From: Methanobrevibacter sp.
Lineage (GTDB): Archaea; Methanobacteriota; Methanobacteria; Methanobacteriales; Methanobacteriaceae
Direction: 5' to 3'
DNA: 33,043 bases
Assembly: GCA_030539795.1 (NCBI GenBank)
Contig: JAUNXN010000006.1
Span: 1-33,043 of the forward strand
Both the position numbers and the translations under genes were made by a program. The notes beneath the pieces were generated by a model. That model searched no databases and was not told the origin of the DNA. It was given only the letters and a program-made list of their open reading frames with translations. Positions 9,307-30,756 of the stretch are shown here, in pieces. Every line of letters starts with the position of its first letter. Within the stretch, counting starts at the first letter, position 1.

Positions 9307-9330
9307 AAAATAGAGAATCAACTCTATTTT
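9307..9330 (-). terminator. Hairpin terminator of ALP1
   Basis: AAAATAGAG (9307-9315) and CTCTATTTT (9322-9330) form a perfect 9-bp stem that includes the ALP1 stop codon. On the minus strand it is followed within a few bases by a run of eight T (complement of 9293-9300). Confidence 0.7.
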
Positions 9331-11291: not shown

Positions 11292-11340
11292 GATTACACC
11301 ACTATATAATATATTATAAATAATAACTTATAAGTTAGCA
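11292..11340 (-). promoter_or_regulatory. Promoter and RBS of ALP1
   Basis: Read on the minus strand, a TATA-like TTTATAATAT (complement of 11311-11320), and a palindromic ACTTATAAGT further upstream (11327-11336), precede GGTG at about 11298 and the ATG at 11291. This shows that ALP1 has its own promoter and need not depend on ALP2. Confidence 0.45.
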
Positions 11341-11357
11341 CTAAAAAAAAGAAAATC

Positions 11358-11382
11358 AATAGAGAGTTGAACCCCCTCTATT
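11358..11382 (-). terminator. Hairpin terminator of ALP2
   Basis: AATAGAG (11358-11364) pairs with CTCTATT (11376-11382), covering the ALP2 stop codon. A T-rich run follows on the minus strand (complement of 11343-11355). Confidence 0.65.
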
Positions 11383-14419: not shown

Positions 14420-14425
14420 AATATT

Positions 14426-14450
14426 ACCTTATAAAATTTAAATATAATAT
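14426..14450 (-). promoter_or_regulatory. Promoter and RBS of ALP2
   Basis: On the minus strand TATA-like ATATTATATTTAAAT (complement of 14436-14450) is followed by AAGGT (14426-14430) and the ATG at 14419. Confidence 0.45.
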
Positions 14451-14498
14451 AAGGTATGGTCAATATTACATATATAGGATTATTATAAAAAAAATAAG

Positions 14499-14525
14499 AA
14501 AAATAGAGATTTGAACTCTATTTTT
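14499..14525 (-). terminator. Hairpin terminator of ALP3
   Basis: AAAAATAGAG (14499-14508) pairs with CTCTATTTTT (14516-14525), covering the stop codon. A T-rich run follows on the minus strand (complement of 14487-14495). Confidence 0.7.
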
Positions 14526-17421
14526 TAACAACAGCTGATTTTTTGACAGTATCCTTCAGGTAAGTTGCCTGATATTTGACTGTTTTGCCTACTTTGAGCT
14601 TTTTGAGGACTGACTTTTTGACTGTAACCTTTGCAATACCTTTCTTGTTGGTTTTAGCCTTGTAGGTTTTGCCGTTGAACTTGAACTTAATCCATTTGCC
14701 CTTGAGGTATTTTCCATTGACTTTCTTGAGGGTTGCAGTCAGTACAAGCTTTTTGGCTGACTTTTTAACCTTGACTGTCTTGACTGTTAAAATCCGCTTT
14801 ACAGTAAGCTTTTTGGAAACCTTGGCATTCTTATAGGTTGCTGTAACGGTGTATTTTCCGGGAGTTATTGTGTTTGGGATCTTGAATTTCACAACTCCAT
14901 TTTTATTGGTTTTAGCCGTGAAGGTCTTTTCGCCTATCTTGATTTTTACCGCCTGGTTTTTGCCGGCAAGCTTGCCGTAAATATCATAGACTTTCAAGCT
15001 GATGGTTATTGAAGTACCATACTGCATTGAAATGGCCTTAAGGCCTGTCAATTTGGCGTAGAAATCAACTTCTATTGGATAGAACTCATCGAAGATTCCG
15101 ACATTGCTGTAGATGACCGGCTGCAGATTCAAATAGAATGATCCGTAATCCCTGTAGTGGGATTTCATGAGGAATTTGCCAAGGGATGTATTTAATGCGG
15201 CATCGACTAATGCCTTGTCAATTGATATCACCTTATTTTGATTCAAATCAAATTCTGCAACTGGCAATCTATAACCTTTTCCTTCGCCAATGTAGAACAC
15301 CAGTGTAGCGTTATAGCAGTCATCCAGCTTAAATTGCTTGGTCTGGCCATAGCTCATTTCACTTGGGTAATCGGTTGGAGGCTGTATGCATATATCTCTG
15401 CCGTCACCTTCAACCTCATAGTCATCGCCTGTGTAATATGCATTGAATGAGTATACTCCCAGAGGCAGCTGAACGCTTGCCTTGCCGTCTTTAAGGGCAA
15501 CACTTTTAAATACGTTGTAACTTCCTTTGCCGAGATATTTGATTTCAACCGTCAAGTTGCCTGAAGCATCGCTAGGCAAGTTCAGATATACTTTATTTCC
15601 TGTCGAATAATCCTGCAGATACATAACCTGTGATTGGACAGTTATGCTTTGGTTGATTGAATTTGAAGAATATCTTGAATCACCGGGATATGAAACGACA
15701 ATGCTGTGATTTCCCGGTTTTAAATCATCAATCCTTACTTCAAAGACATTAATGTTTTCATAGTCAAAGACATACTCCCATCTTTCTGTATCCTGGCTGA
15801 TTTTGGTGTAGCCATAATCCTTTCCGTCGATTGTGACGCTTGCATTGCTTTTGATGTCGCCAGGCATTGAAAATGCAAAGCAGTTGTCTTCGCCATAAAT
15901 CTCATGCTCTCCAAGAAAACCTATATCGATTGGGCATGTCAGAGTATAATTAAAGGATTCATAAAATGAAGCTTTGCCGGCATTGTCCTTGAATTCGACC
16001 TCAACGATATTGTTTTCTTCTGTTTTCAATCCACTAAGTGCAATTTCATAGCTTTCGGCACACAATGACGCATATGATGCATATGTTGCCTTTACTTTTT
16101 TGGTGGATATGGTCTTTCCATTGACTTTGACTGTTAAAACGCCGGATACGTCACTCAACAAATCCACATGTACCATGCCGTCTTCACAATAACACGCATA
16201 ATGGGACAGCTTGAAAATGAAAGTTTCATTTGCAGGCTTGAAATTCTCATCCCCTCCGTAGCACACCTTGACGCTGTAGTTTCCAGGTCCTGAATAATCC
16301 CGCCAAAGCATTTCCTCATCGATTAGATAGTCGAATGCCCCTTGGAGGGTGTCTATGAGCTTATCGTTCAGGTAGATGCTTGTGTTGCCGGCAGGTTGGT
16401 AATCTTCAATATAGCTGTAAACATAAATGTCTATTCCCGGACCGCTGTCGCCGTCGCTGTCATCCCAGGTCCATGGATAAATGTACTCCAAAGAATAGAC
16501 GTTGATGACTAAACCTTTTACTTCAAAGCTTACGTCCCATGTTTCATTTCCATAAGTGATGTTGAGGGAATAAAACCCTTCGCTTTGGGCGGGAATCTTA
16601 ACTGTGGCGGTGCCCTTCGTTAGCTTGAATGTGCCGTTTACAAGGCCGGACAATATCATGTCCCCATCAGAGCCGTCATGTGAATTGAATGTCAAGTTAT
16701 AGGTCTTGCCAGCCAACAATATTGGTGGAATGATTATTTCCGGATTGCTTGATTCCAGAGAACCTTTTTTTATTGAATCCTTTCGGTTCCCGTTGAAATA
16801 TTGGATTTCATATGTGCTGAAATGCCCTTCATATTCAAAGGAAATAAAATCCGAACCATCATATTTTTGACTAATGACTGCTTTATTGTCCAGCAAAACC
16901 CTAATATCACCTGCAATGCCGTCGTCAAGAGTGACAGAACCGCTGACATAGTTATGCCCCATTCTATCGCAATACTGATCGATGTAGGCATGGATGAATG
17001 AATTTTCAATTGAGCCTGTTTTTATGAACCCCATATAATTATTGTCGCCTGAATAATTGATTAGGACGTTGTGGATTCCATAATCGAGCTTCAAATCCTG
17101 GACGAATATTCCATTGCCTCCGACTGAAACCTTCTGGTTGTACCTTTCGACATCATCAACGGAAATGCTGATGTTTCCTCCGGCATCGAGAGGCATCCTC
17201 TCAACACTTATGACTGACAATTCATCGGAAGGATACTCCTGAGGGATATAGACTTCATAGTCCTCATCTTCAACCAGATCATGAAGATTAGCTTCATCAA
17301 CCTCAATGGAAGCTGATTCGTTTCCTAAAATCGCATCTGTAGTGTCTTGTGCACTGACTGCGCCTAAAAGGAGAACGGCTAAAATAAATATTGATATAAT
17401 AAATAGCTTTTTTGGATTCAT
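14518..17421 (-). CDS. Adhesin-like protein ALP3, Ig-like repeats, basic tail
   Basis: A 967-residue exported protein. The signal peptide is residues 1-24 (FIISIFILAVLLLGAVSA, cleavage before QDTTD). The first ~130 mature residues run parallel to ALP2 (RMPLDAGGNISISVDDVERY, then a VSVGGN turn). Ig-like units follow, with P-G-N-Y-S-V-K-V-C-Y-G-G-D-E-N-F, P-G-N-H-S-I-V-V-S-Y-P-G-D-S-R-Y and Y-Y-T-G-D-D-Y-E-V-E. A penultimate domain from about residue 785 (AISMQYGTSITISLKVYDIYG) ends KKLTVK, and the lysine-rich terminal domain is about 880-967. An AGGGG ribosome-binding site lies 4 bases before the ATG. A cysteine cluster near the middle (HYACYCEDG) is unusual for these proteins and could be a disulphide or metal site. 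Cell-surface adhesion is inferred. Confidence 0.85.
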   Translation of the reverse strand: MNPKKLFIISIFILAVLLLGAVSAQDTTDAILGNESASIEVDEANLHDLVEDEDYEVYIPQEYPSDELSVISVERMPLDAGGNISISVDDVERYNQKVSVGGNGIFVQDLKLDYGIHNVLINYSGDNNYMGFIKTGSIENSFIHAYIDQYCDRMGHNYVSGSVTLDDGIAGDIRVLLDNKAVISQKYDGSDFISFEYEGHFSTYEIQYFNGNRKDSIKKGSLESSNPEIIIPPILLAGKTYNLTFNSHDGSDGDMILSGLVNGTFKLTKGTATVKIPAQSEGFYSLNITYGNETWDVSFEVKGLVINVYSLEYIYPWTWDDSDGDSGPGIDIYVYSYIEDYQPAGNTSIYLNDKLIDTLQGAFDYLIDEEMLWRDYSGPGNYSVKVCYGGDENFKPANETFIFKLSHYACYCEDGMVHVDLLSDVSGVLTVKVNGKTISTKKVKATYASYASLCAESYEIALSGLKTEENNIVEVEFKDNAGKASFYESFNYTLTCPIDIGFLGEHEIYGEDNCFAFSMPGDIKSNASVTIDGKDYGYTKISQDTERWEYVFDYENINVFEVRIDDLKPGNHSIVVSYPGDSRYSSNSINQSITVQSQVMYLQDYSTGNKVYLNLPSDASGNLTVEIKYLGKGSYNVFKSVALKDGKASVQLPLGVYSFNAYYTGDDYEVEGDGRDICIQPPTDYPSEMSYGQTKQFKLDDCYNATLVFYIGEGKGYRLPVAEFDLNQNKVISIDKALVDAALNTSLGKFLMKSHYRDYGSFYLNLQPVIYSNVGIFDEFYPIEVDFYAKLTGLKAISMQYGTSITISLKVYDIYGKLAGKNQAVKIKIGEKTFTAKTNKNGVVKFKIPNTITPGKYTVTATYKNAKVSKKLTVKRILTVKTVKVKKSAKKLVLTATLKKVNGKYLKGKWIKFKFNGKTYKAKTNKKGIAKVTVKKSVLKKLKVGKTVKYQATYLKDTVKKSAVVKK

Positions 17422-17425
17422 AATA

Positions 17426-17460
17426 CCCCTGATATTACTATGTAAAAAATAGTATATAAT
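17426..17460 (-). promoter_or_regulatory. Promoter, RBS and inverted repeat upstream of ALP3
   Basis: The minus strand shows TATA-like ATTATATACT (complement of 17451-17460) and AGGGG (17426-17430) before the ATG at 17421. Between them lies an inverted repeat, ACTAT (17437-17441) and ATAGT (17449-17453), overlapping the TATA edge, where a repressor could act. Confidence 0.45.
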
Positions 17461-17483
17461 ATTCTATTATAAAAAAATAAGAG

Positions 17484-17510
17484 AAAAATAGAGATTTAAA
17501 CCCTATTTTT
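17484..17510 (-). terminator. Hairpin terminator of ALP4
   Basis: AAAAATAG (17484-17491) pairs with CTATTTTT (17503-17510), covering the stop codon. A run of seven T follows on the minus strand (complement of 17471-17477). Confidence 0.65.
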
Positions 17511-19749
17511 TAACAATAGCTGATTTTTTGACAGTGTCCTTCAGGTAGGTTGCCTGATATTTGACTGTTTTACCGACCTTGAGCTTTTTGAGGACTGTTT
17601 TCTTGATTGTAACCTTTGCAATTCCGTACTTGCTGGTTTTTACCTTTTTGATGAATTTGCCGTTGAAGTAGAATTTTACGTATTTGTATTTGATTGGTGT
17701 TTTTCCTTTCTTAAGGGTTGCTTTAAGTACCAAGCTTTTTGCTGATTTCTTAACAGTTACTGTTTTGAGTGTCACGGCATGCTTTACTGTCAGTTTTCTT
17801 GTGATTTGGACCTTGCCGTATTTGGCTGAAATCTTATAGCTTCCGGGAGCCTTGCCGATTTTAAGAGTTGCATATCCGTACTTGTTGGTTTTGACCTTTT
17901 TGACGTATTTTCCGTTTATGTAGAAGTAGACATACTTGCTTTTGACGACTTTACCATTATAGTCTGTTACCTTGACCTTAAATCCTGTTGCGCTTCCGTA
18001 ATATTTGGTCAAATCATTTGCAGCAAGTTTGGAATTTCTGACTGTCATGTCAACAACTCCATGGTAGAACCAGTCGGTACCGTTGAAATATTTTGGGAAA
18101 ACCGTATATTTACCCTCATTGAGGACGGTCAATGGAATTGAAGCCTTTTTGTCCTTGAATTTTGCAGTTAAAACATATTTGTCCTTATTGTTATAGATTT
18201 CAACTACAAATTTCCCTGAAGGGTCATCGTAAGGCAGAGTCATGTAAATTGCGCCATTGCCGTTTACTACATTTTTAGGAACGTGGAATACGGGATCAAT
18301 GAAGAGCACTTCAGAAACATTGAACGGATTGTCTTCATCATCATATATGAAGCGTACGTCATATATTCCCACTTTCAAGGTGGAAGGTATTGTGACGTTG
18401 GCTGTTCCGTTTGTGAACTGGCCGATGACCTTTTCACTTCCAAAGTCAACTGTGAAGTTTCCGTTGGCATTCGGGAAGTTCACTGTGAAGTTTCCGGTTT
18501 CGCCGACATCCAATGAACCTGGGCCTTTGATGTCCACATAGACATATACCCTTCCTGTGTAGGTGTAGCTATAGTCTCCTGTGATTTCAACTCGAACCTT
18601 GTGTCCTCCGACCTTCAATCCTGTGATGTCCATGGAGGCCCAGTAATATGTTTCGTAATATGCCTTTGCAAATGATTTTGAGCCATAGATCTTTCCGTCG
18701 ACATAGACTGACATGTTGCACTCTGAAGCAGGCATCTTTGAATCTATGGTAATCTTTTCATCGGTTATGTAGTCATCACTGAAGGTGAGATATGGATAAA
18801 CCCTTATTTTTGCGCTTGAATAGCATGGCGCGAACTTATCATCACCATCATAGGAAACGACAATGGTATGATTGCCCAAGCCTATATTTGATATGTCTGC
18901 AGAATAGTAGATTGACCAGCTTTTGGTGAAATTGCATGGCTCATTGTCGATTTTCACGTTCATTTTGTCAGGATCGAATTTGTCCGGAACTAGGAAGCTG
19001 TATGATTTGTCATTGCCGTATTTGACATCTCTATCCCACAAGTAGAAATATGTGGTATTGACAATGAATGTCTCGTTGTAGATGACTCCCTTTGCAGTCG
19101 TATAAGTCACTTTGATGATATGGGGATTACCGAAGGCCGATAGGTCATTCAGCGAATAGGTCTTAGAGAAACTGGACACCTTGGTGTATGTGTAGGTCTT
19201 ATCGTCGATTGCAACGACCAGTTTGCCTGCATCGGCCGAATTCACGCGAACGCTCATGTCATTGTAGGAAATCTCATCATCAATGATTGGATTTGGGACA
19301 TTAACGACAATGTCTGAGATGTAGAATGTGAAGTTCCTGTCGGCGTCCTTAAACTCGGTGGCCTTGGTGACTTTGACATTGAGGATATGCTCTCCCAAAG
19401 CCAATCCATTTGTAGGAACCCTAAAGACCTCATCCACCTCATCTGAACCGTCATAAACGACTGTCTTTTCGTTGCCGTCGATGCTGACGTCGATTTTACC
19501 GTCAGTAATGGTCTTGATAAAATAGATTGGCTCGTCCTTTAAAATCGTATCCTCGCCATAGCGGAGATTCATCTCGATTTCGGAAGGCCAGTCATCCCCT
19601 TCAAGGGAATGCGGAATCACTTCGGCTGAATTGTCATCATTATCTGTTGGAATTGCATCGTCCGTTGCATTGTCCTCTGCACAAACGGATTCGATTGTTA
19701 AAATAGCCAGCAAGAAAATACCCACCAGCATTATCTTTTTGAATTTCAT
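17503..19749 (-). CDS. Adhesin-like protein ALP4, Ig-like repeats, basic tail
   Basis: A 748-residue exported protein. The start at 19749 is chosen because AAGGCG lies 5 bases upstream and the protein then begins MKFKKIMLVGIFLLAILTIE, a normal signal peptide (cleavage after residue 24, SVCA); an upstream in-frame start at 19827 would bury the signal. Ig-like units carry LGEHILNVKVT, LGNHTIVVSYDGDDKFA and VGGHKVRVEITGDYSY. The penultimate domain begins near LTKYYGSATGFKVKV and ends RKLTVK. The terminal domain (~663-748) differs from the other ALPs in having FYFNGKFIKKVKTSKYG where they have FKFNGKTYKAKT, so it is the most divergent tail of the array. Surface location is inferred; ligand unknown. 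Confidence 0.85.
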   Translation of the reverse strand: MKFKKIMLVGIFLLAILTIESVCAEDNATDDAIPTDNDDNSAEVIPHSLEGDDWPSEIEMNLRYGEDTILKDEPIYFIKTITDGKIDVSIDGNEKTVVYDGSDEVDEVFRVPTNGLALGEHILNVKVTKATEFKDADRNFTFYISDIVVNVPNPIIDDEISYNDMSVRVNSADAGKLVVAIDDKTYTYTKVSSFSKTYSLNDLSAFGNPHIIKVTYTTAKGVIYNETFIVNTTYFYLWDRDVKYGNDKSYSFLVPDKFDPDKMNVKIDNEPCNFTKSWSIYYSADISNIGLGNHTIVVSYDGDDKFAPCYSSAKIRVYPYLTFSDDYITDEKITIDSKMPASECNMSVYVDGKIYGSKSFAKAYYETYYWASMDITGLKVGGHKVRVEITGDYSYTYTGRVYVYVDIKGPGSLDVGETGNFTVNFPNANGNFTVDFGSEKVIGQFTNGTANVTIPSTLKVGIYDVRFIYDDEDNPFNVSEVLFIDPVFHVPKNVVNGNGAIYMTLPYDDPSGKFVVEIYNNKDKYVLTAKFKDKKASIPLTVLNEGKYTVFPKYFNGTDWFYHGVVDMTVRNSKLAANDLTKYYGSATGFKVKVTDYNGKVVKSKYVYFYINGKYVKKVKTNKYGYATLKIGKAPGSYKISAKYGKVQITRKLTVKHAVTLKTVTVKKSAKSLVLKATLKKGKTPIKYKYVKFYFNGKFIKKVKTSKYGIAKVTIKKTVLKKLKVGKTVKYQATYLKDTVKKSAIVKK

Positions 19750-19754
19750 ATTTT

Positions 19755-19800
19755 CGCCTTTTTTATTATACTTAATATTATAATAAAAATTAGATATAAA
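19755..19800 (-). promoter_or_regulatory. Promoter and RBS of ALP4
   Basis: The minus strand has AAGGCG (19755-19760) 5 bases before the ATG, and TATA-like stretches at 19775-19784 (TATTATAATA) and 19791-19800 (TTTATATCTA). Which one is used cannot be told. Confidence 0.4.
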
Positions 19801-19846
19801 TGTAATCACTTGGCAAAAATAGAACATATTTTAAAAAAAAATAAGA

Positions 19847-19871
19847 AAAATAGAGCTTTTGACTCTATTTT
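19847..19871 (-). terminator. Hairpin terminator of ALP5
   Basis: AAAATAGAG (19847-19855) pairs with CTCTATTTT (19863-19871), covering the stop codon. A run of nine T follows on the minus strand (complement of 19833-19841). Confidence 0.7.
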
Positions 19872-22800
19872 TTAACTTTTGCTGATTTTTTTACTGTATC
19901 CTTCAAGTATGTCGCCTGATATTTGACTGTTTTTCCAACCTTGAGCTTTTTCAAAGCGGACTTTTTGATGGTTACCTTTGCAACACCATTCTTGTTGGTC
20001 TTTGCCTTGTAGGTTTTGCCTTTGAACTTGAATTTGACGGTTTTGCCTTTTAAAGCCTTCTTGCCTTTCTTGAGGGTTGCGGTCAGAACCAGCTTTTTGG
20101 CGGACTTTTTGACTTTAACTGTCTTTAAGCTCAGCAGGTGCTTTACTGTCAGTTTTTTGGTTACGACACCGCCTTTGTAGGCTACTTTAACTTTATAGGT
20201 TCCAGGAATCTTTGAAAGCTTTATGGTCGCATATCCTTTGCTGTTTGTTTTGACTGATTTTACCTTTTTGCCGTTAACATAGAAGGTTACTGCCCCTCCT
20301 TTGACTATTTTGCCGTAGCTGTCAACCACTTTTACCTTGAAGGTTGCCTTTGCGGTGTAGTATACGCTTACGGCCTTCATGGTAAGTGTTGGAGCCTTAA
20401 GGGCTGTTACGTTGAATTCAATCCAGTCATCATTGTATCTGTCATCGCCTGAGTAGTGGGCTGAAAGGATGTTTTCACCGGCTTTTGGAACGAAGGCCTT
20501 GGCTGTTGCCTTTCCGTTCTTGACTGTTCCGGTCTTTCCGTCCTCAAATGTGATTGTGCCTGTTGCATCGCTTGGAAGTGTGAAGGCAACGTCGATGTAG
20601 TTGTTGGCTATGATTTCCTTTTGAGGAGTTCCTGTGATGTTTGCGTCATATTTTTTGACCAAGATATAATACTCGCCATAGTCTTCAGGAAATGATCCGT
20701 ATTTGGAATCGCCGGTGTATGAAATGTAGAGATATGAATCCTCATTTTCCAGATTGGAGTATTTTGCAAATCCTATTCCGTTCTTGAAGGTCACATCCAA
20801 TTCCTTATCATTGGCTTTAATGGTTAAAACACCTTTGGCATCGCTTGGAAGCTCGACAGTGACATTTCCTTCCTGATCCACATAGATTTCATCACAATAG
20901 GTGACTTTTGGCTGGATTAACAGGTACTGGGACATGTCATCTACAGGATAATCATCACCGATATATGAAGCTTCCACCTTATACTGGCCCAATTTCAAAT
21001 CATCAAGGGCAATGACTGCCTTGCCTGAACTGAGCTTTTTGGTGACCTCCTTGATAGGATTTGAATCATCATCATAGGCATATACAGTTACCTTTAATGA
21101 ACCTTTGGCATCAGCAGGCAGATTCAGATATATCTTATTTTGATCGACTATGTCTTGCCTGTAAGGCAACTGGATGGCCGGAAATACTGTAAATTCCTCA
21201 TTGAATTCGCTTGCAGGGTATTTATCATCACCCATTGTTTTGACTGTGATATTATGGTCTCCCAATGCCACGTCTTTTATTGTGAATTTGACTTGGCTGT
21301 TGTTGATCTGGCCGCTGAAGCATTCTTTGCCGTCCAGCTCTGCAACGACATTACCTGTGACATTTACTGTAAACTCTACTGAAACGTTGATGTCTTCACC
21401 ACAAACAACATCACTTATACCATCATTAATATTAATAAAGGCATTATATACAATATTGACCTTAAGGTCTTTAGTGAAGCTCTTATAGGTCTTATCTCCA
21501 GTGTAGACTAGTTTTGCATCGTATTGGCCGCAGTCCATACCGCTTAAATCAAAGATGTAAAAGTTGTATTCCGAATCATATTTTTTGGCATTGATTTTCT
21601 TGCCGTCAATTTCAAGAACGGCACTTCCCTGGGCATCCATAACCGTATTCATAATAAACATTGCATAGTCATCATATAGGATTACCTTATCCGTAAGGTC
21701 TATTTTATAATAATCTATTCTAAAGGTAGTGGAATATGATGATGGAAGATAATAATCGTCTCCGCTGTAGTCCACCTTGATTGTATGGTTTCCGATTTTA
21801 AAGTCGCTCATTACATCGGAGAAATAGAATTCGACAGTTGAGCTTTCATCAAGGAAGTATGTTTCCACATATTTGCCGTCGATGTAAACTGTTATGTTTC
21901 CACTAATATAATCCCCACAGGAGATGTATACGGTGTCCTCGCAGTTCTGTGAAAGAATGATTTCCGGAACATTGACTGTCATGGTTGAATTAGGGGCGCT
22001 GTCATGAACGCAGATTTCAACATCCCCTTCATATTCAGGATAGTTTCCCCCTTCATATCCGATGCGGAAACTGGTGAATTCACGAGCTTTTGTTGTTTTG
22101 AATGTTAGAGTTGCTTTGCCGTTTACAACCTTGGCCGTTTGTGTTGTTTTGGAATCTGTAATGAATATGGTTCCGTTTGCGTCATTAGGAAGGCTTACTG
22201 ACACCTTGAATCCATCCCTGACCCAAACGTCATCGCTGTAGTCGAAATTGGCAACAACATTGAAATAATACTCGAATGGCTGAACTGCATAGTCATCGCC
22301 AGTGTAGTTAATCAACGCTTCATGCTGGAACTTCATATCATAATTTGACATGTCGATGCTGACTGTGCCCTTTTCAAGACTGTAGAGTTTTGAAACTCCG
22401 TCAACGGTTACGTTGAGCTTGCCTTTTGCGTCTTCAGGAAGCCTGAATTCCATTCCTTTGCCGCTTTTGTATGGAACATCACAGTAGAAATCCAATAATT
22501 CTGTGACTGTGAACACGATTTCCTTTGTTCTGCTTGAGTATTTCTTGTCGGAATATGTGAAGGTGACTTTGTTTTCACCCATCTTCAGACCGTCGATTTT
22601 TACGTTGACATATCCGTCCTCATCTAGAGCATATGATTTTGTTTTTCCATTATAAGCCACTTTAACTTTATCTATTGCATCATAAGGCAAATAGATATCA
22701 ACATCAGCAACTGTCCCATAAGAAAGTTCAGTGTCGACTGCGGAAACTGAAAATCTGTAGTTCATGTTGAATGAACCTGATTTTGTAAAGCTTGGATATG

Positions 22801-23482
22801 TATCGCCGTCGTCGCTTTTGAATACGAGCTTATAATTGTGCTTGCCCAATTTGTCTGCAGCAACGCTGAATGAAGTGTAGCCGTCGACAGGCACTTCATC
22901 AAGCTCCTCGCCGTCAAGATAGTATTTTACGTATCCGCTCACATCCCCTGCGAAATCAATTCCAATTGTTTGGCCATAGTCAAGCTCGGTTGGAGCCTGA
23001 AAAGTATAATAGACATACTGGAAGTCAAAAGTCTTTGCAAAGTCCGCATAATGGGCATCATTGAAGAACCTTACGTTCAGTTTGTGGGATCCGAAGCTCA
23101 GGTCGTCAAAAATGAGTGAACTGGAAATCTCATTGTCATACTCACGGGCATAATCGTTGTAGACCTCCTTTCCGTCAACGCTTGCGGATATGTTTCCGTC
23201 ATAGGCATATTCGCCGGAAGGCATGTCCACTGAAAACTCGCCGTCATAGCCTTCCTCACCCTCAAGGACGGTTGTCGGAATATTGCTGTAGCCTACATTG
23301 GATGATATGTCCTCCTTTGCATTTCCATCACCGATAACGACCTCGCTGCCATCATCGGTGATCAATTCAACTGCATCGTCAGCGCCCAATGTCTGATTGA
23401 CATCCCCATTTGCGCTGACTGCACCGATTGCTAGAATAGCCAGCAGTAAAATGCCTACTATCATTAACTTTTTAAATTTCAT
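19865..23482 (-). CDS. Adhesin-like protein ALP5, largest ALP in the window
   Basis: A 1205-residue exported protein. The ATG at 23482 is chosen for its GAGGT site 5 bases upstream and the resulting signal peptide (MKFKKLMIVGILLLAILAIG, cleavage after AVSA, residue 24); the ATG at 23533 would add 17 residues before it. Roughly ten Ig-like units follow, many with D-A-K/N-G between strands (PSDAKGVLTIKAND, PSDATGTITFEDG, PNDANGTIFIT) and G-D-D/S-K/R-Y turns. The penultimate domain starts near VSVYYTAKATFKVKVV and ends KKLTVK. The terminal domain (~1120-1205) is nearly the same as in ALP7, and 119 bp of the coding DNA are identical (19896-20014 against 27218-27336). Very rich in Asp and Tyr before the tail. 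Probably a long, stiff surface fibre. Confidence 0.86.
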   Translation of the reverse strand: MKFKKLMIVGILLLAILAIGAVSANGDVNQTLGADDAVELITDDGSEVVIGDGNAKEDISSNVGYSNIPTTVLEGEEGYDGEFSVDMPSGEYAYDGNISASVDGKEVYNDYAREYDNEISSSLIFDDLSFGSHKLNVRFFNDAHYADFAKTFDFQYVYYTFQAPTELDYGQTIGIDFAGDVSGYVKYYLDGEELDEVPVDGYTSFSVAADKLGKHNYKLVFKSDDGDTYPSFTKSGSFNMNYRFSVSAVDTELSYGTVADVDIYLPYDAIDKVKVAYNGKTKSYALDEDGYVNVKIDGLKMGENKVTFTYSDKKYSSRTKEIVFTVTELLDFYCDVPYKSGKGMEFRLPEDAKGKLNVTVDGVSKLYSLEKGTVSIDMSNYDMKFQHEALINYTGDDYAVQPFEYYFNVVANFDYSDDVWVRDGFKVSVSLPNDANGTIFITDSKTTQTAKVVNGKATLTFKTTKAREFTSFRIGYEGGNYPEYEGDVEICVHDSAPNSTMTVNVPEIILSQNCEDTVYISCGDYISGNITVYIDGKYVETYFLDESSTVEFYFSDVMSDFKIGNHTIKVDYSGDDYYLPSSYSTTFRIDYYKIDLTDKVILYDDYAMFIMNTVMDAQGSAVLEIDGKKINAKKYDSEYNFYIFDLSGMDCGQYDAKLVYTGDKTYKSFTKDLKVNIVYNAFININDGISDVVCGEDINVSVEFTVNVTGNVVAELDGKECFSGQINNSQVKFTIKDVALGDHNITVKTMGDDKYPASEFNEEFTVFPAIQLPYRQDIVDQNKIYLNLPADAKGSLKVTVYAYDDDSNPIKEVTKKLSSGKAVIALDDLKLGQYKVEASYIGDDYPVDDMSQYLLIQPKVTYCDEIYVDQEGNVTVELPSDAKGVLTIKANDKELDVTFKNGIGFAKYSNLENEDSYLYISYTGDSKYGSFPEDYGEYYILVKKYDANITGTPQKEIIANNYIDVAFTLPSDATGTITFEDGKTGTVKNGKATAKAFVPKAGENILSAHYSGDDRYNDDWIEFNVTALKAPTLTMKAVSVYYTAKATFKVKVVDSYGKIVKGGAVTFYVNGKKVKSVKTNSKGYATIKLSKIPGTYKVKVAYKGGVVTKKLTVKHLLSLKTVKVKKSAKKLVLTATLKKGKKALKGKTVKFKFKGKTYKAKTNKNGVAKVTIKKSALKKLKVGKTVKYQATYLKDTVKKSAKVKK
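19896..20014. repeat. 119-bp block identical to 27218-27336 (ALP tail), copy 1
   Basis: Base-by-base reading shows the same 119 bases in the terminal-domain coding DNA of ALP5 and ALP7. It runs from GTATCCTTCAAGTATG to GCCTTGTAGGT. The other ALP tails differ at many third codon positions over the same stretch. Confidence 0.85.
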
Positions 23483-23487
23483 ATTAA

Positions 23488-23517
23488 ACCTCAAAATTTC
23501 GATATTACTTATAAAGG
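23488..23517 (-). promoter_or_regulatory. Promoter and RBS of ALP5
   Basis: The minus strand shows TATA-like CTTTATAAGT (complement of 23508-23517), then GAGGT (23488-23492) and the ATG at 23482. Confidence 0.5.
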
Positions 23518-23780
23518 TTTGTAAAAATTCCATTATTAAATGATATTATTAAATCAATAATATCCAATGAAAACAAGGCGAATTTGAGAGTTTAATCGGA
23601 TTTTGAGTAATCTGGGCGATTTTAATCTGGTCCAACAGTTTATCGGTTATCTTTTGATTGCGAAATTGTCGGAAAGTAGATTTTAAAAGCCATATGCAAT
23701 TTGAATTTCAAAACGGCAGTTAAGATGGCTTAAATCGCCATATTCCCAAAATAGAGTATTCTAAATTTAATAATATCTCA
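23518..23780. other. Non-coding divergent region between ALP5 and ALP6
   Basis: The two divergent start codons are 328 bases apart. No ORF with a ribosome-binding site was seen. The stretch contains a duplicated AATCTGG (23609-23615 and 23624-23630) and a short inverted repeat ATGGC/GCCAT near 23725-23741. Otherwise nothing definite: it is AT-rich and probably holds the regulatory sites for both genes. Confidence 0.4.
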
Positions 23781-23810: not shown

Positions 23811-25883
23811 ATGAAATTCAGAAAGATTTTTTTGGTCAGCATGATTCTGTTGGCCATCCTAACAGTTAGCGCCGCCTGCGCAGCCGACAACATAACGGCC
23901 GATGATTTGGCGACACCGGAAATTGACGATTCCATTTCAGAATCGGTAGACGAAGAAATAACCGAGGACATTCTGCAATCCAGTGCGGACGATTCCGTAT
24001 TGTCCGCCAAAAAGGATTCCGGAATGGAAGCAGATTTTGTAACCCAGGATGACGATGATGAAATCTATCCGATTGACGAGACAAGCGACATTCTAGCCGA
24101 CAATTACAAAAACGATTATGTGAGGGTCAAATTCCCTCAAAAGGTCAGCGGAAAGTTATCATTCTACATTGACGACAAATCCATAGTGAACAGGACAATA
24201 ACAAAGAAAGTCCATTACTTCTATGTAAACGAGGAAACATATAACCTTACAGTCGGAACACATTCCTGGAAGATGATATATTCCGGCGATGACAACTACA
24301 CTTCAGCATCACAGGACGGAACCTTCAATCTGACCGTCAAAAACGAATCCGGAATTAATATCAGCTTCGTAAAGCAGTACGATGACGGTAATATCAGCAC
24401 AATAGATGAAAATAAGGACCTCTATGTCAATGACCATGACAGCGACTACGTCATGATCAGATTCCCTAAAAAGGTCAGCGGAACATTGTCCCTCTACATT
24501 GACAAGAAGCTGGTTGCTGAAAAGGAGATAACCGGAAGAACACACTACCTGTTTGTCAACACAAAAAGCTACGGACTGGCTGAAGGAAACCATACCTGGA
24601 AGGTAAGGTATACCGGCGATGAAACCTACAAATCCGAAGTTTTATATGGAAACTTTACCCTGAATCCTGCAAGCGACTCATTCGTTAAAAAGAACCCTAA
24701 AATGCAGGTATATCTTATCGGCACTGCATATACAAACGAAACCACAGACGAATTTGAAGCGGAAAGAGATGACGAGTACTTCAAGGTCAAATTCCCAAAA
24801 GAAGTCAGCGGAACATTATCCCTTTACATTGACGGCAAATTCATGGCCGAGAAGAAAATCACCGCAAAGACCCATTACCTCTATGCAAACCTTGAAGACT
24901 ACAAGATCAGCAAAGGAGCACACAACTGGGAAATCAGATACTCCGGTGATGACGAATATGCATCATCATCAACAAACGGAACCTTTGAAGTTAACAAAAC
25001 AACCAAAAAGGTCAAACTTCAAAAGAAAACCCCTACCATGACCATGAGCAAAACAAAAACATACAAGACAAAACTGTATACCAAAAAGTACACAGTGACA
25101 ATGAAATACAACAAAAAGCCTCTCAAAAAGGTCAATGTCGTCTTGACAATCAAAGGCAAAAACTACAAGAAAACAATCAAGACAAAAACAAACAACAAGG
25201 GCGTTGCAACCTTCAGCATCAAAGGACTTAAGAAAGTGGGAACATATACCGGAACAGTGAAATACGGCGGAAACAAAAACTACAGAGCCGTAACTACAAA
25301 GCTGACAATCAAAATCACCAAGAAAACATGCAAGATCACCCGAGGCAAAAAAACCGTCGACACAAAAGTGCAATACACTACCGAAACAGTGACCAACTAC
25401 GACTGCAACGGTTTCATCGACGTGTCCGAAGCATATGAAATCCTGAACGCTTTCAGAGCCGAAGAAGGCGTATGGCAATGGAATAAGGACAATGTTGGAA
25501 AAACATACTTCAACACCAATGCTTCAAATATGCTTAAAACCCTTGAAATAAGTCCAATATTTGAAGAGGTTGCACAGACAAGGGCAAAAGAGCTTGTCGA
25601 ATCATTCAGCCATACACGTCCTGACGGCAATGACACCTGGACTGCATATCCCGCTTTAGGCAGCGGCTATTATCCTACCGGAGAAAACATTGCAATGGGA
25701 CAGAAAGACTGCAAAGAGGTCATGGAAGCCTGGAAGGAAACAAAAGAACTGTATGAAAAGCAAGGCCACAGGCGTAACATGCTCAATCCAACCAGCGATT
25801 ATGTCGGAATTGCAGGATACAAGTATAATGGCGTAATCTACTGGGTGCAATCCTTTGGAAGGGACTTCGATTGGCCATATTAA
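23811..25883 (+). CDS. ALP6: three surface repeats fused to a CAP/SCP domain
   Basis: A 690-residue exported protein. The signal peptide is residues 1-24 (FLVSMILLAILTVSAACA, cleavage before AD). An acidic spacer reaches ~70. Three tandem repeats of ~108 residues follow (about 70-177, 178-287, 288-395), each with V-K-F-P-x-x-V-S-G-x-L-S-x-Y-I-D and ending W-K/E-x-x-Y-S/T-G-D-D/E-x-Y. A lysine-rich Ig-like domain spans ~396-520. Residues ~533-690 are a CAP (SCP/PR-1) domain with H601 in FSHTRPDG, E625 in GENIAMG, H653 in GHRRNMLNP and the final strand YWVQSFG, so the usual His-Glu-His site looks intact. CAP domains are secreted modules that bind lipids or other ligands in several lineages; the activity here is unknown. 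It lacks the terminal tail of the other ALPs. Confidence 0.85.
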   Translation: MKFRKIFLVSMILLAILTVSAACAADNITADDLATPEIDDSISESVDEEITEDILQSSADDSVLSAKKDSGMEADFVTQDDDDEIYPIDETSDILADNYKNDYVRVKFPQKVSGKLSFYIDDKSIVNRTITKKVHYFYVNEETYNLTVGTHSWKMIYSGDDNYTSASQDGTFNLTVKNESGINISFVKQYDDGNISTIDENKDLYVNDHDSDYVMIRFPKKVSGTLSLYIDKKLVAEKEITGRTHYLFVNTKSYGLAEGNHTWKVRYTGDETYKSEVLYGNFTLNPASDSFVKKNPKMQVYLIGTAYTNETTDEFEAERDDEYFKVKFPKEVSGTLSLYIDGKFMAEKKITAKTHYLYANLEDYKISKGAHNWEIRYSGDDEYASSSTNGTFEVNKTTKKVKLQKKTPTMTMSKTKTYKTKLYTKKYTVTMKYNKKPLKKVNVVLTIKGKNYKKTIKTKTNNKGVATFSIKGLKKVGTYTGTVKYGGNKNYRAVTTKLTIKITKKTCKITRGKKTVDTKVQYTTETVTNYDCNGFIDVSEAYEILNAFRAEEGVWQWNKDNVGKTYFNTNASNMLKTLEISPIFEEVAQTRAKELVESFSHTRPDGNDTWTAYPALGSGYYPTGENIAMGQKDCKEVMEAWKETKELYEKQGHRRNMLNPTSDYVGIAGYKYNGVIYWVQSFGRDFDWPY

Positions 25884-25885
25884 TT

Positions 25886-25927
25886 GATGGAAGAGCAATT
25901 CTTTCATCACTCTTTTTTTATTTTTTT
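25886..25927 (+). terminator. Hairpin plus T-run after ALP6
   Basis: GATGGAAGA (25886-25894) pairs with TCTTTCATC (25900-25908), with one G-T pair, around a 5-base loop. TCTTTTTTTATTTTTTT follows at 25911-25927, the best-formed terminator on the plus strand. Confidence 0.75.
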
Positions 25928-26078
25928 AAGCAATCCCGAATTGTTCTTGACTATTTTTTGCGAATATATCGTCCACATCTAAAAATCAAACAAATATCAA
26001 AATTGATTTTAAACCCATAATTTACGAAATAAAGACAATATTGACCTTAAAAATGATAAAAAAATAAATATCTAGTAA

Positions 26079-26095
26079 GATAATTATAAATTATC
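26079..26095. promoter_or_regulatory. 17-bp palindrome at the promoter of the Ntn-hydrolase gene
   Basis: GATAATT-ATA-AATTATC is perfectly symmetric and lies 19-35 bases before the ATG at 26114, so it overlaps the expected TATA position (TTATAAATT at about 26084-26092). It may be an operator or just a symmetric TATA region. Confidence 0.4.
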
Positions 26096-26113
26096 GAATT
26101 TAAGAGGTTTAAT

Positions 26114-26929
26114 ATGACAGCAGAAGTATTAATCATGAGACAAAATGGAATAATATTTGCGGCAGACAAAGCCGTGACAACTCCAAACGACAAATCATAT
26201 ACAACAAGCAAGAAGATCTTCAATTTAGACAAGGATTTTCCAGTCACCATGATGATTAACGGCCATGTTGACTTTGAGGGAGTTTTCATTGGCGATTTGA
26301 TTGGCGAATTTAAAAAAGAAAATGACTTCAAAGAAATTGGAGATATTGAGAAAATCAAAAACAGATTCATCGAATTTCTTGAAAAAAACACCAAATACAC
26401 CTCAAAAGAAGAATATATTGACATGATTAGATATATTTAAAAATGAAATCGAAACGGAAATTATAAATTATGGCTTTGAAGAAGTAATGAATTACCATAA
26501 ACATGAGATTCCCCAATATATTAAAGACATATCCACATTTAATGAAGAATTATATGATGTAATCCCAAATCAAATAATAAAATTCAAATTGAATTTGAAA
26601 AACAATTAACTGACTATAATTTAAATTTAGAGACAATGCATGAAATCATAAACATATATGGGAAATTAATTAACAACAAATTTAAAACACTGAACACATT
26701 TATTGAAAAATATAAAATTCAAAGTCTACAAGACACATCGGAATCGATTGAATATTTACCTAATGAATTGCTCTGTGATTTAGCAGATTATCTAATACAA
26801 ATTACTGGATTAAAGCAAAAAATATCCTCTGAACTTGAAACCGTGAGTATTGAAACTAATGTTGGATTATTAACCAAAGCAATTAATTTTAAATGGGTAA
26901 AACACAATACTGATAGACTTAAATATTAA
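26114..26929 (+). pseudogene. Proteasome-like Ntn hydrolase, interrupted by two frameshifts
   Basis: The start has GAGGT 5 bases upstream of the ATG. After Met removal the N-terminus is Thr-1, with Asp-17 (AAD) and Lys-33 (SKKIF) at the spacing of the proteasome beta/HslV active site. The frame stops at 26438-26440. It continues one base over (about 26427-26609, FKNEIETEIINYGFEEV...) and returns to the first frame near 26580-26591 (EFEKQLTDYN...), ending at 26929. The shifts compensate: the whole span is 816 bases, 272 codons with the stop. Both shifts fall in short A/T runs. It could be a recent pseudogene, a sequencing error or programmed slippage. The first 108 codons alone still carry all three catalytic positions. 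The substrate of this family is unknown to me. Confidence 0.7.
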
Positions 26930-26957
26930 TAAAATATAGTAACTAAAGGTGAGAAAC

Positions 26958-27080
26958 ATGCTGTTCGTTCCAAAGAAAAAAAGAATAGAATCTGAGAAAA
27001 AGATAATGGAAGAATGTTTGGAAATGCAAAGAAAACTTAACGAAGAAACAATGAAAGAATTGCACAACCACAAGGATTAA
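26958..27080 (+). CDS. 40-residue charged small protein
   Basis: The ATG at 26958 is preceded by AAAGGTGAG at 26945-26953, a good ribosome-binding site. The product begins MLFVPKKKRIESEKK and continues with Glu/Lys/Met-rich helix up to HNHKD. It probably forms a single amphipathic helix or coiled coil. It follows the Ntn-hydrolase gene by 28 bases on the same strand, so it is probably co-transcribed. No family recognised. Confidence 0.45.
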   Translation: MLFVPKKKRIESEKKIMEECLEMQRKLNEETMKELHNHKD

Positions 27081-27170
27081 ACACTGCAAAACAATGATTT
27101 TGCACCTCAAATAAGAAATACAAAAAACATCACCAATAATTCTTCTTGACAGATTTAAAAAAAAAAGCAA

Positions 27171-27189
27171 TAGGGAAATTAAATCCCTA
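27171..27189 (-). terminator. Hairpin terminator of ALP7
   Basis: TAGGGA (27171-27176) pairs with TCCCTA (27184-27189), covering the stop codon. A run of eleven T follows on the minus strand (complement of 27156-27166). The stem sequence differs from the AATAGAG stem of ALP1-5. Confidence 0.7.
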
Positions 27190-30100
27190 CCTTTTAACTT
27201 TTGCTGATTTTTTAACCGTATCCTTCAAGTATGTCGCCTGATATTTGACTGTTTTTCCAACCTTGAGCTTTTTCAAAGCGGACTTTTTGATGGTTACCTT
27301 TGCAACACCATTCTTGTTGGTCTTTGCCTTGTAGGTCTTGCCGTTGAACTTGAAGGTTACCTTTGCGTTCTTTATTGCCTTTTTGCCCTTCTTGAGGGTG
27401 GCGGTCAATACCAGCTTTTTGGCAGACTTTTTGACTTTGACTGTCTTCAGTGTCAATACCTGCTTTACCGTGAGCTTTTTGATCACGCTTGCTCCCCTGT
27501 ATTTGGCGGTGATCTTGTATGTGCCCGGAAGCTTTGAAATCTTAAGCTTTGCAACACCTTTCTTGTCAGTCTTTACGGACTTGACTTTTTTGCCTGCGAT
27601 GTAGAATGTGACATACTTTCCGACGACGAGTTTGCCGAAGCTGTCCCGGACGGTAACCTTGTAGCATGAGCCGTCATTATAGTACATATTTAGGTTGCCC
27701 GCCTTGATGGTCGGGGTCTTCAATACGTTGATGTATGTGTAGTCACTCCATTCCTCATATCTGCCGTTTCCTTCCCAGCCATAGCTGACATATTGAATTC
27801 CTTTTCTTTGCGGAGTAATCTTTACGCTGGCTTTGCCGTTTATTATATCCCCATAGTAGAATTCCTCATTGATTATGACATATACCTCTCCTGTCGCATC
27901 CTTCGGCAAGGTGAATGTTATTGTTGATGTGTCCTTTGCAATGATTTCCTTTGGAATGCTTACGCTGACCGCAGGCTTGTGCCCTGCTATGTAGACCCAT
28001 CTGGAAGTCGAATAGTTTCCGTAATTTCCCGCATAATCGATTTCAGCTTCGTAGTCTCCACTATCCAATCCATTAATTGGAATGACTATCCTGTTTCCGT
28101 TGATCTCATATGTTTTGTTGATAAGGGGTTCATTTCCGCCGTCGGAAAGTGTGAAATTGATATTGCCTGTTGCGTCGCTCGGCATTTCAATTAGAATATT
28201 GTTTTCACGGCCGATTTCTAAATCAGAAGCGTTCACGTTAATGCCGAGTGAAAAACTGTCGTCAATAAATTCAACGTCATAGTCTGTTCCGTCATAGTAG
28301 GCATATAATGAATACATGCCCAATTTAAGCTCATTGATAGATACTGTCCCTATGCCGTCCCTTACGGCCTCACTTTTCTCAAGTACACGGCGATTATTGT
28401 CATCATAGACCTTAACAACCAGATTTCCATTTGCATCGCTCGGCAATTTCAAAGATACGTTCACGCCTTCGTCGATGTGGTAAGAATCACCATGTTTGAT
28501 TTTAGGGATGACTTCGAATTCCCCGGCTGCAGTCCGTTCAGGATAAACGGAATCGCCTTTGTAGAAGACTGTGGCGTTATGCTTGCCCAAGTCCAAATAA
28601 GGAATCATGACTGAACCATGTCCCTTTTTGAGGGCCACAGTATAGTTTTTGCCATCGACTGTCAAAATGCCGTTGCCGTTGATGTTGCCCCAGCAGTCAA
28701 TTACCACTCCTACTGAATCGCCGTATGCAAATCCGTTTTCGTCGATTCCCATAGCGTAGGTTACATTGAAGGAATGCCTTTCGGAGTATGGCTTGAATCT
28801 GCTATCTCCCATATATTTGAATTCAACGTTCCGGTATTCGCCGAAATCAAGGTCTGACAGGTCAATGTATTCATAACAGTCATCACCATATTCTATGAAA
28901 GTTGTGGATTTGACGTATTTGCCGTCGATGTATAAGTTAAAGTTTCCGGTTGCATCCTGAGAGCGCAAAAGATGAACAGCGGCCACTTCACCTATTATGA
29001 CTGTTTCGGGCACTGTAAATGAAATATATGATACTTTGAGTGTTGTTTCGTTTTCAAGAGCCTTGTAGTAGTCATCACCGGAGTATAAAACCTTCAATGA
29101 GTATTCCTTAAACTCAAGGCCGCTTACAAGCTCACCTATTGACACAAACGCCTCGCCGTTGTGGGCCGGTGCGCATATGCTGTTGTTTTCAATGGTGAAT
29201 GTGACGTTTCCTTCAGCACCTATGCCCAAAGTGGCATAGATATATCCTGAACTGTCAAAGACAACTGTTTTAGGAGCTTCAATTATCAGTTGGCCGTCTT
29301 TTGAGACTTTTCTGACATTGATTTCCACATACCTTGTGAAATCGCCGTATCTGGTGGAATTGTAGGTTACAGTCAATAACTGCTCTTCGGCTACATTAAG
29401 GAAATCCAATCCAAAGCTGGCGTTTCCATTGACTACGCTTTTGTTTGCCACCACTTCGTGCTTATATTCTATGGTGGCATAGCCATCTGCATCTTCCGGA
29501 AGGATAACGGATAGTGTGCCGTTTTCATCTGCTCCGATTGAATTTGGACATTTGATATATGGAATTGTTTTAAAGCGGTATGCATCATAGCTTATGCCAT
29601 AGTCATCTCCTGTGTAGCTGACGGTGATGTTGTGGCATCCAATGCCCAAAAATGACAGGTCGATTTTTGCTGTTCCATTTGTCAGATTGGCCGCTGCAAT
29701 TTCAGTGCCGTTTTCTAAAATCACAATGCTACCCTTTGCATCCCCAGGCAATCTAACTGAAATCGCATCTCCGCTGGCATATTCGATTAGTTGCGGACAT
29801 TCTATGTTTTCAATGACATTGATTATCCTTGTGATTGTACGTGCGGGATGTGCCTGATCGCCTTTGTAGTCAAAGACAAGTGTGTTTTCACCATATTTCA
29901 GATTCTTTATGGTATATAATGCATTTCCGTATTCGTCAAGAGGTATGCTTATGGCATTGCCGTTCTGAATCAGAGTTATCTCATCGCAAACAGCAGGAGT
30001 GTTTATGTCAATGACGACATCGTTTGCCCAAAGGAAAGTGTCCCCGTCCTCCAAATCAACATCCAGAATGTATGATACGTTGAACGTGCCTGAGCGATTT

Positions 30101-30756
30101 TGCGCAGGGTACTTCTTATCTCCCAAATATCTGAACTCATAGGTGTGAAGGCCATATGTGAAGCCCTTAAGCCAGATGAATGCCTCTCCGTCATCAACTT
30201 CAGCGCTGCCGTATAATTTGCCATCGACATACAATGATACCTTTCCTCTGGCATCCATCGGCAGGTAGGTTGAGGCCCATTGCTGCACATCAACATTCAG
30301 ATCTGTTAAATCGTCGAACCTGACATAATTTAAAGTGAAAACATCAGTCACATTCCACGGCAAATATCTCTCATCTCCTGAGTACAATAGGGAAATGTTA
30401 TATGGAGTATTGTACTTCAGGTCACCCCCATAGTCCCCTAATTCGAAACAGAACGATTGTTTGGCAGCGCTTGTGTTTATCTTTTCAACGCCGTTGACCT
30501 GAACGGCCACTGTTCCGGAGATGTTTTCATCCTTAAGCTCCACCCAAAGCTCAGGATCATCAGTGACATAGTGCTCACCGCTGTAGCTTCCAAAGCTGAC
30601 GTCAGGTGAAACCCTCTCATCACTTGAATTGGAGATTATCTCCTGCGGGCTGTCATCAATCTCCAGTGTTGAATTGTCTGCGTCAGCAGCACTGACAGCA
30701 CCGATTAATAAAATAAATAATAATAAGCTGATTGCTATAATCCCTTTAGGCTTCAT
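27187..30756 (-). CDS. Adhesin-like protein ALP7, Ig-like repeats, basic tail
   Basis: A 1189-residue exported protein. The signal peptide is residues 1-23 (IIAISLLLFILLIGAVSA, cleavage before ADADN). About ten Ig-like units follow, with YSGDERYLPW, YLGDKKYPA, YKGDQAHPA, YTGDDYG and YMGDSRFKP turns and PSDANGNL / PSDATGNI / PKDATGEV strand openings. The penultimate domain begins near LNMYYNDGSCYKVTV and ends KKLTVK. The last 86 residues (from KTVKVKKSAKK) contain 30 Lys, 1 Arg, 1 Asp and no Glu, and the protein ends VKR rather than VKK. It stands apart from the tandem array, but its tail DNA is partly identical to ALP5. GTGATT (complement of 30761-30766) precedes the ATG. A surface adhesin is the likely role; ligand unknown. 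Confidence 0.86.
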   Translation of the reverse strand: MKPKGIIAISLLLFILLIGAVSAADADNSTLEIDDSPQEIISNSSDERVSPDVSFGSYSGEHYVTDDPELWVELKDENISGTVAVQVNGVEKINTSAAKQSFCFELGDYGGDLKYNTPYNISLLYSGDERYLPWNVTDVFTLNYVRFDDLTDLNVDVQQWASTYLPMDARGKVSLYVDGKLYGSAEVDDGEAFIWLKGFTYGLHTYEFRYLGDKKYPAQNRSGTFNVSYILDVDLEDGDTFLWANDVVIDINTPAVCDEITLIQNGNAISIPLDEYGNALYTIKNLKYGENTLVFDYKGDQAHPARTITRIINVIENIECPQLIEYASGDAISVRLPGDAKGSIVILENGTEIAAANLTNGTAKIDLSFLGIGCHNITVSYTGDDYGISYDAYRFKTIPYIKCPNSIGADENGTLSVILPEDADGYATIEYKHEVVANKSVVNGNASFGLDFLNVAEEQLLTVTYNSTRYGDFTRYVEINVRKVSKDGQLIIEAPKTVVFDSSGYIYATLGIGAEGNVTFTIENNSICAPAHNGEAFVSIGELVSGLEFKEYSLKVLYSGDDYYKALENETTLKVSYISFTVPETVIIGEVAAVHLLRSQDATGNFNLYIDGKYVKSTTFIEYGDDCYEYIDLSDLDFGEYRNVEFKYMGDSRFKPYSERHSFNVTYAMGIDENGFAYGDSVGVVIDCWGNINGNGILTVDGKNYTVALKKGHGSVMIPYLDLGKHNATVFYKGDSVYPERTAAGEFEVIPKIKHGDSYHIDEGVNVSLKLPSDANGNLVVKVYDDNNRRVLEKSEAVRDGIGTVSINELKLGMYSLYAYYDGTDYDVEFIDDSFSLGINVNASDLEIGRENNILIEMPSDATGNINFTLSDGGNEPLINKTYEINGNRIVIPINGLDSGDYEAEIDYAGNYGNYSTSRWVYIAGHKPAVSVSIPKEIIAKDTSTITFTLPKDATGEVYVIINEEFYYGDIINGKASVKITPQRKGIQYVSYGWEGNGRYEEWSDYTYINVLKTPTIKAGNLNMYYNDGSCYKVTVRDSFGKLVVGKYVTFYIAGKKVKSVKTDKKGVAKLKISKLPGTYKITAKYRGASVIKKLTVKQVLTLKTVKVKKSAKKLVLTATLKKGKKAIKNAKVTFKFNGKTYKAKTNKNGVAKVTIKKSALKKLKVGKTVKYQATYLKDTVKKSAKVKR
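27218..27336. repeat. 119-bp block identical to 19896-20014 (ALP tail), copy 2
   Basis: Second copy of the identical block in the terminal-domain coding DNA, here in ALP7. On either side the two genes differ: for example AAACTTTTGC against TAACTTTTGC contexts at the stop, and GTAGGTC against GTAGGTT at the other edge. Confidence 0.85.

Follow-up and report, generated by a model that had tools for sequence, protein, structure and literature searches.

Does the stretch at positions 26114 to 26929 of the window (the whole piece of Methanobrevibacter DNA analysed here, 33,043 nucleotides) encode a working threonine hydrolase, or does it hold the remains of one, and does this gene belong together with any of its neighbours? 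In our reading, which draws on gene sequence and arrangement, the locus is very probably what decay has left of a mobile module that consists, as a matter of anatomy, of two genes, one for a hydrolase and a small one downstream of it. The features on which the argument turns are the following.

26114 to 26440, plus strand: N-terminal part of the apparent hydrolase pseudogene, with Thr-1, Asp-17 and Lys-33; it ends in an in-frame stop, the first lesion.
26439 to 26606, plus strand: middle part of the apparent hydrolase pseudogene, in frame +1; family-like to about 26572-26579.
26572 to 26590, plus strand: approximate junction of an internal deletion of ~100 codons, or one beta-sheet of the Ntn core, placed by alignments, a profile gap and the strands of the L003 model.
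26591 to 26929, plus strand: C-terminal part of the apparent hydrolase pseudogene, again in the start frame; up to 52% identity to L011 (E 2e-32).
26947 to 26952, plus strand: Shine-Dalgarno-like AGGTGA of the small gene; the same arrangement precedes its archaeal homologues.
26958 to 27080, plus strand: small partner gene, intact, 40 aa, MLFVPKKKRIESEKKIMEECLEMQRKLNEETMKELHNHKD; homologues lie behind related hydrolases.

The window also holds a cluster of large adhesin-like genes with Ig-like domains (9324-23533, 23811-25883 and 27187-30756), one of which carries a CAP domain and which have near-repeated C-terminal KTVKVKKSAKKLVLTATLKK segments. An Rfam search of 25500-27300 returned nothing.

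The frame starting at 26114 begins with MTAEVLIMRQNGIIFAADKAVTT...SKKIF and, once the Met is removed, presents Thr-1, Asp-17 and Lys-33, as a preliminary description of this DNA had noted. These residues are kept across the family: in an alignment of 111 members (a redundant set), position 1 is Thr in 109 and Ser in two, while Asp-17 and Lys-33 are found in all 111, so that their spacing is not due to chance. L003, the nearest of the intact relatives, was modelled with AlphaFold2 from a 17-sequence alignment (mean pLDDT 89, pTM 0.83). The model has a complete proteasome-like core of two beta-sheets, and its extra helices at 98-172 and 240-314 constitute insertions after H1/H2 and between H3/H4. 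When this model was compared with the PDB using Foldseek, the best 50 listed matches were all 20S proteasome subunits (best E 3e-6, target-normalised TM up to 0.61), with a high rmsd because of the insertions. On the other hand, proteasome or HslV membership was rejected on scores below the cut-offs: Pfam PF00227 gave 13.3 bits against a cut-off of 22.4 and no match at E<=1 for L002 and L003. The hydrolase family is covered by no Pfam or NCBIfam model. The initial view of a proteasome-like Ntn hydrolase that is neither of these two enzymes is thus well founded.

Besides, intact relatives match phrog_5990 of PHROGs v4 (L002, 3e-83; L003, 6e-38; a Providencia phage protein, 7e-152), and the same profile covers both ends of the window gene without its middle, the first piece at 1-102 (E 9e-17) and the last at 323-411. 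No function is assigned to phrog_5990. The family was rightly called poorly described, yet it is not new. Among the 22 proteasome homologs first reported by Fuchs, Alva and Lupas (2021), PMI-4 is marked by insertions that follow H1/H2 and separate H3 from H4, and it is distributed over Euryarchaeota, numerous bacterial phyla, and phages (PMC8665760). Judged by insertions, taxonomic range and phage occurrence, our hydrolase family is very probably PMI-4 (reference sequence HDY66466.1), a family described in 2021 and uncharacterised. The survey of PMI homologs gives no genomic context (PMC8665760). Recovery of relatives depended on the query: scanning genome contigs with the window fragment and viral contigs with a divergent archaeal alignment found none, whereas scans with an intact paralog and with a mixed bacterial/archaeal alignment did.

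As to the state of the window gene, the frame arithmetic given previously is correct: the start frame meets a stop at 26438-26440, from which point frame +1 can be read as far as 26606, and the start frame is readable again up to 26929. Translated piece by piece, or with an X placed at either break, all three parts are family-like. The N-terminal part is 45-50% identical to intact relatives, and the middle part shares 36-45% identity with residues 109-153 of L003, L004 and L005. The C-terminal part, earlier thought unrelated, shares 40-52% identity with the corresponding ends of the closest relatives (E as low as 2e-32). However, alignment to intact relatives places the first piece at family residues 1-108, the middle one at roughly 109-153 and the last from roughly 256 to the C-terminus. 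Between the end of the middle piece near residue 153 and the start of the last near 256, ~100 codons are missing; what lies at the second site is thus an internal deletion, and not the second of two compensating single-base shifts that would leave all 272 codons readable. In agreement, the window DNA matches our family profile A2 at 1-105 and 249-374, with a gap between. The strands at 177-183, 192-202, 205-214 and 221-225 of the L003 model, which together make up one entire sheet of the Ntn sandwich, are lost with the deletion; the proteasome-like fold therefore holds for the nearest intact relative, while the window copy lacks one sheet.

A search of Methanobrevibacter-type genomes found family copies in 23 of 67, of which 19 copies are readable as uninterrupted proteins of 361-407 aa. 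One of the 19 is a second, intact copy of 396 aa in the genome of the window, and a near relative of this paralog is present on another Methanobrevibacter contig. Further copies within the genus carry breaks unlike those of the window copy, so decay is common in this hydrolase family. One further member (L020, G062:C9) reads as 304 aa in one uninterrupted frame and likewise has no central family region (about profile positions 173-252); it is a second, independent core-deleted copy. The suggested comparison with sister strains yielded no intact orthologous site among the genus genomes, only short DNA pieces of the locus, the longer ones 66-76% identical, and the exact junction sequence was not found in viral contigs. 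Judging from these alignments, the window hydrolase reads as a young pseudogene with one frame break and a ~100-codon deletion. Its carrying only two lesions in 816 bp suggests recent loss, which upholds the earlier idea of a very recent pseudogene as the probable reading.

The hydrolase gene does not stand alone, as had been supposed, since the small gene at 26958-27080 belongs with it. Among 79 non-redundant loci (hydrolases <90% identical), 70 (89%) have an ORF of 40-90 aa starting -20 to +60 nt from the hydrolase stop, so that hydrolase and small ORF form two adjacent co-directional genes; such an ORF was seen in 18% of Markov-shuffled downstream sequences and behind 27% of the other long ORFs of the same loci (p = 2e-30). 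A few loci have no ORF in this strict interval, e.g. L012 (at +65) and L017 (at +244). The linkage spans archaea, Bacteroidota, Pseudomonadota and Bacillota in different neighbourhoods. Homologues (E<1e-3) of the small ORF that follow a hydrolase <70% identical exist for 47 of the 79 loci, compared with two of 40 control loci. Several small-ORF families can be told by short motifs (ELREWQKKFNP, QQVVxNAYKALAAA, EQVEEISSRI, LERxEAATGR and MLFVPKK) and are common to hydrolases down to about 40-50% identity; three lysine-rich bacterial ORFs (L094, L102, L105) that also fell into the MLFVPKK cluster were treated as chance. Pairwise Nei-Gojobori estimates of pN/pS are mostly 0.1-0.6 (dN<dS), with weaker constraint (0.5-1.1) in an array of copies on G003:C4. 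Shine-Dalgarno sites precede many of the small ORFs.

The E. coli RefSeq records that we checked do not annotate these ORFs, and neither do the (incomplete) gene tables of the Ruegeria and Rhizobium plasmids, while several phage and plasmid records list them as hypothetical proteins. At L223, an intact E. coli prophage module, such an unannotated ORF lies downstream of hydrolase WP_000123148.1. As no paper describing the small partner or its function was found in the open literature (subscription journals and preprints aside), the linked gene appears to be new here. Between L002 and L010, the small-gene DNA (0-150 nt after the hydrolase stop) is identical although the hydrolases are 76% identical, and divergence begins immediately past the small gene, a pattern suggestive of recombination at the module's 3' end.

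The window small protein aligns with 12 archaeal homologues and is predicted to have a short hydrophobic start followed by one helix. Within this subfamily, the small gene is kept at all six loci with an intact hydrolase (G018:C93, G020:C10, G029:C17, G036:C38, G052:C126, G059:C16), and also where the hydrolase is broken or partial (the window, G021:C125, G039:C4, G039:C1, G056:C1, G020:C9, G020:C20). On G003:C4, a 24-residue hydrolase remnant is followed by three intact small genes. Two small genes are orphans, one near 26.6 kb on G029:C17 and one on G052:C119, each at least about 3 kb away from any hydrolase piece; on G044:C28 both genes are lost. Tandem copies of the small gene are further found on G020:C10, G029:C17, G017:C7 and G019:C396. 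Given that the small gene has ~1/9 the length of the hydrolase gene, its outliving the hydrolase is partly expected from target size. Yet the tandem copies, together with the constraint between an orphan (L172) and a linked (L004) small gene (dS 0.31, dN 0.11), argue that the small gene matters by itself, even if this constraint may predate the orphaning. In L210 (G039:C1, 1459-1803), a second hydrolase C-terminus is followed by a second small-gene remnant; here, tail and small gene were duplicated in tandem as a unit.

Family members were recovered from Streptococcus prophages and satellite phages, from Providencia, Stenotrophomonas and Porphyromonas phages, from plasmids, from E. coli prophages and from 100 IMG/VR candidates. 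In prophages and satellites they take accessory positions, beside lysis genes, opposing late genes or near the repressor side; in the Streptococcus elements the hydrolase sits at the element end. E. coli prophages offer two settings, one with the hydrolase opposing the late genes beside Q and holins, the other with it after an HTH gene beside replication genes, and this placement resembles that of accessory genes expressed in lysogens. The intact paralog of the window genome (L031, G000:C59, 1762-5421) lies near a terminase large-subunit gene and adjoins a PIN-domain gene. Its 76%-identical counterpart (L039, G035:C66, 7109-10785) has the same terminase/PIN neighbourhood, and the two apparently represent related Methanobrevibacter proviruses. 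Most archaeal chromosomal copies are single and lie between housekeeping genes. On a Rhizobium gallicum plasmid (L225, 3001-7236), a family member is located ~1.4 kb from multiubiquitin and ThiF genes.

The sequences themselves show that the window hydrolase belongs to the family and carries two lesions, that the two genes are linked, that the second gene is conserved, under constraint and able to survive loss of the first, and that copies occur on prophages, satellites and plasmids. How the two products would work together is a matter of interpretation. Gene 1 encodes a PMI-type, phrog_5990 proteasome-like Ntn hydrolase, in which removal of Met would free Thr-1 as the expected nucleophile, assisted by Asp-17 and Lys-33, and which may act as an effector, be it a peptidase or a peptide ligase. 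Gene 2, directly downstream, encodes a small (about 35-75 aa), fast-diverging protein; this helical product would co-evolve with the hydrolase and may bind it, restraining or directing the Thr-nucleophile enzyme. In the window genome, the hydrolase has very probably been inactivated by the frame break and the loss of one beta-sheet, with the small gene left intact. The small protein would most likely be an inhibitor or recognition factor. That it binds the hydrolase in this capacity, within a toxin-antitoxin-like or phage-exclusion module, is a tentative proposal, and we prefer antitoxin-like inhibition because it best explains the orphans and arrays. A broader version, which we put forward as speculation, would see the PMI-type homologs as the enzyme component of a mobile conflict system of two genes, so far unrecognised, that is spread over archaea, bacteria, prophages and phage satellites. 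In it, a hypervariable small protein would gate or neutralise its partner, a threonine hydrolase or ligase, and orphan small genes would serve as immunity genes.

On a par with this speculation stands a role in shielding lysogens from other phages by superinfection exclusion or abortive infection, where the small protein would be a sensor, adaptor or regulator and not an antitoxin. The accessory-gene placement in prophages and satellites speaks for such a role. Against it stand the single archaeal copies between housekeeping genes and the PADLOC defence models, which gave only partial hits (E >= 0.007) and no match; a known anti-phage defence system was rejected for that reason.

Doubtful to a slightly greater degree is that the small protein serves as substrate or ligation partner of the hydrolase, through processing or connectase-like chemistry. 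Connectase, a methanogen proteasome homolog, is a specific protein ligase (PMC8665760), and the short recurring motifs of each small-protein family would fit a recognition site. However, a substrate role fits less easily with the orphans and with an array of three copies that lacks a working hydrolase, and the connectase-type S3-S4 insertion is not seen in the L003 model.

Two further explanations are improbable. One would take the small ORF as a mere neighbour in gene-dense DNA, functionally untied to the hydrolase, and could appeal to the comparable ORFs behind 27% of other genes in these loci; against it stand the 89% linkage across the four groups named above, in different neighbourhoods, and the homologous small ORFs behind divergent hydrolases. 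By the other, the hydrolase would be intact in the organism and its apparent breaks would be assembly or base-call errors. The assembly is indeed metagenome-type and fragmented (193 contigs, about 80% complete) and the first break sits at a T/A run, so that the first lesion could be a sequence error; a one-base assembly error, which the preliminary description had considered, is possible for this lesion only. A loss of ~100 codons is not a base-call error, and the differently broken copies in the genus point to decay within the family. Programmed slippage at both sites, suggested by the return of the two frames to register, is next to impossible as a route to a functional 272-residue protein, because the joined product misses four strands of the Ntn core and could not adopt the family fold with or without slippage, and because the intact relatives need none and the homologues already contradict it.

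The two-gene module favoured here bears on an abundant family that the 2021 survey left without a functional clue: the conserved downstream gene is a first specific candidate partner, and the linkage points to a role of a proteasome-type enzyme in mobile-element conflict or regulation. If so, threonine hydrolases would join the enzymes of small two-gene modules on prophages and satellites, to which the window itself contributes only a broken copy.

Among known systems, connectase is likewise a methanogen proteasome homolog with an N-terminal Thr; it lacks H1/H2 and has a two-helix insertion at S3/S4 (PMC8665760), and compared by this description it differs from the L003 model, which has H1/H2-like helices and other insertions. 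With 20S proteasome beta subunits and HslV, the family shares the spacing of the catalytic triad, the fold and, in most members, a C-terminal GG-IDVA-IT-KDG segment, but it has large helical insertions, neither an HslU or AAA+ partner nor a propeptide, and PF00227 scores below the cut-off. Toxin-antitoxin and effector-immunity pairs resemble the module in gene arrangement, with a small gene beside an effector-like enzyme, mobile elements, and orphans and arrays; here, the small gene lies downstream, and no known toxin-antitoxin family was matched. Intact relatives match phrog_5990 over the protein and the window copy at its two ends, the family middle being missing. As to PMI-4, although the window copy is broken, without a complete core, and the linked small gene is absent from the survey (PMC8665760), the family shares with it Thr-1, Asp-17 and Lys-33, a proteasome-like beta core, helical insertions at the two places given above, and an occurrence in Euryarchaeota, phages and many phyla of bacteria.
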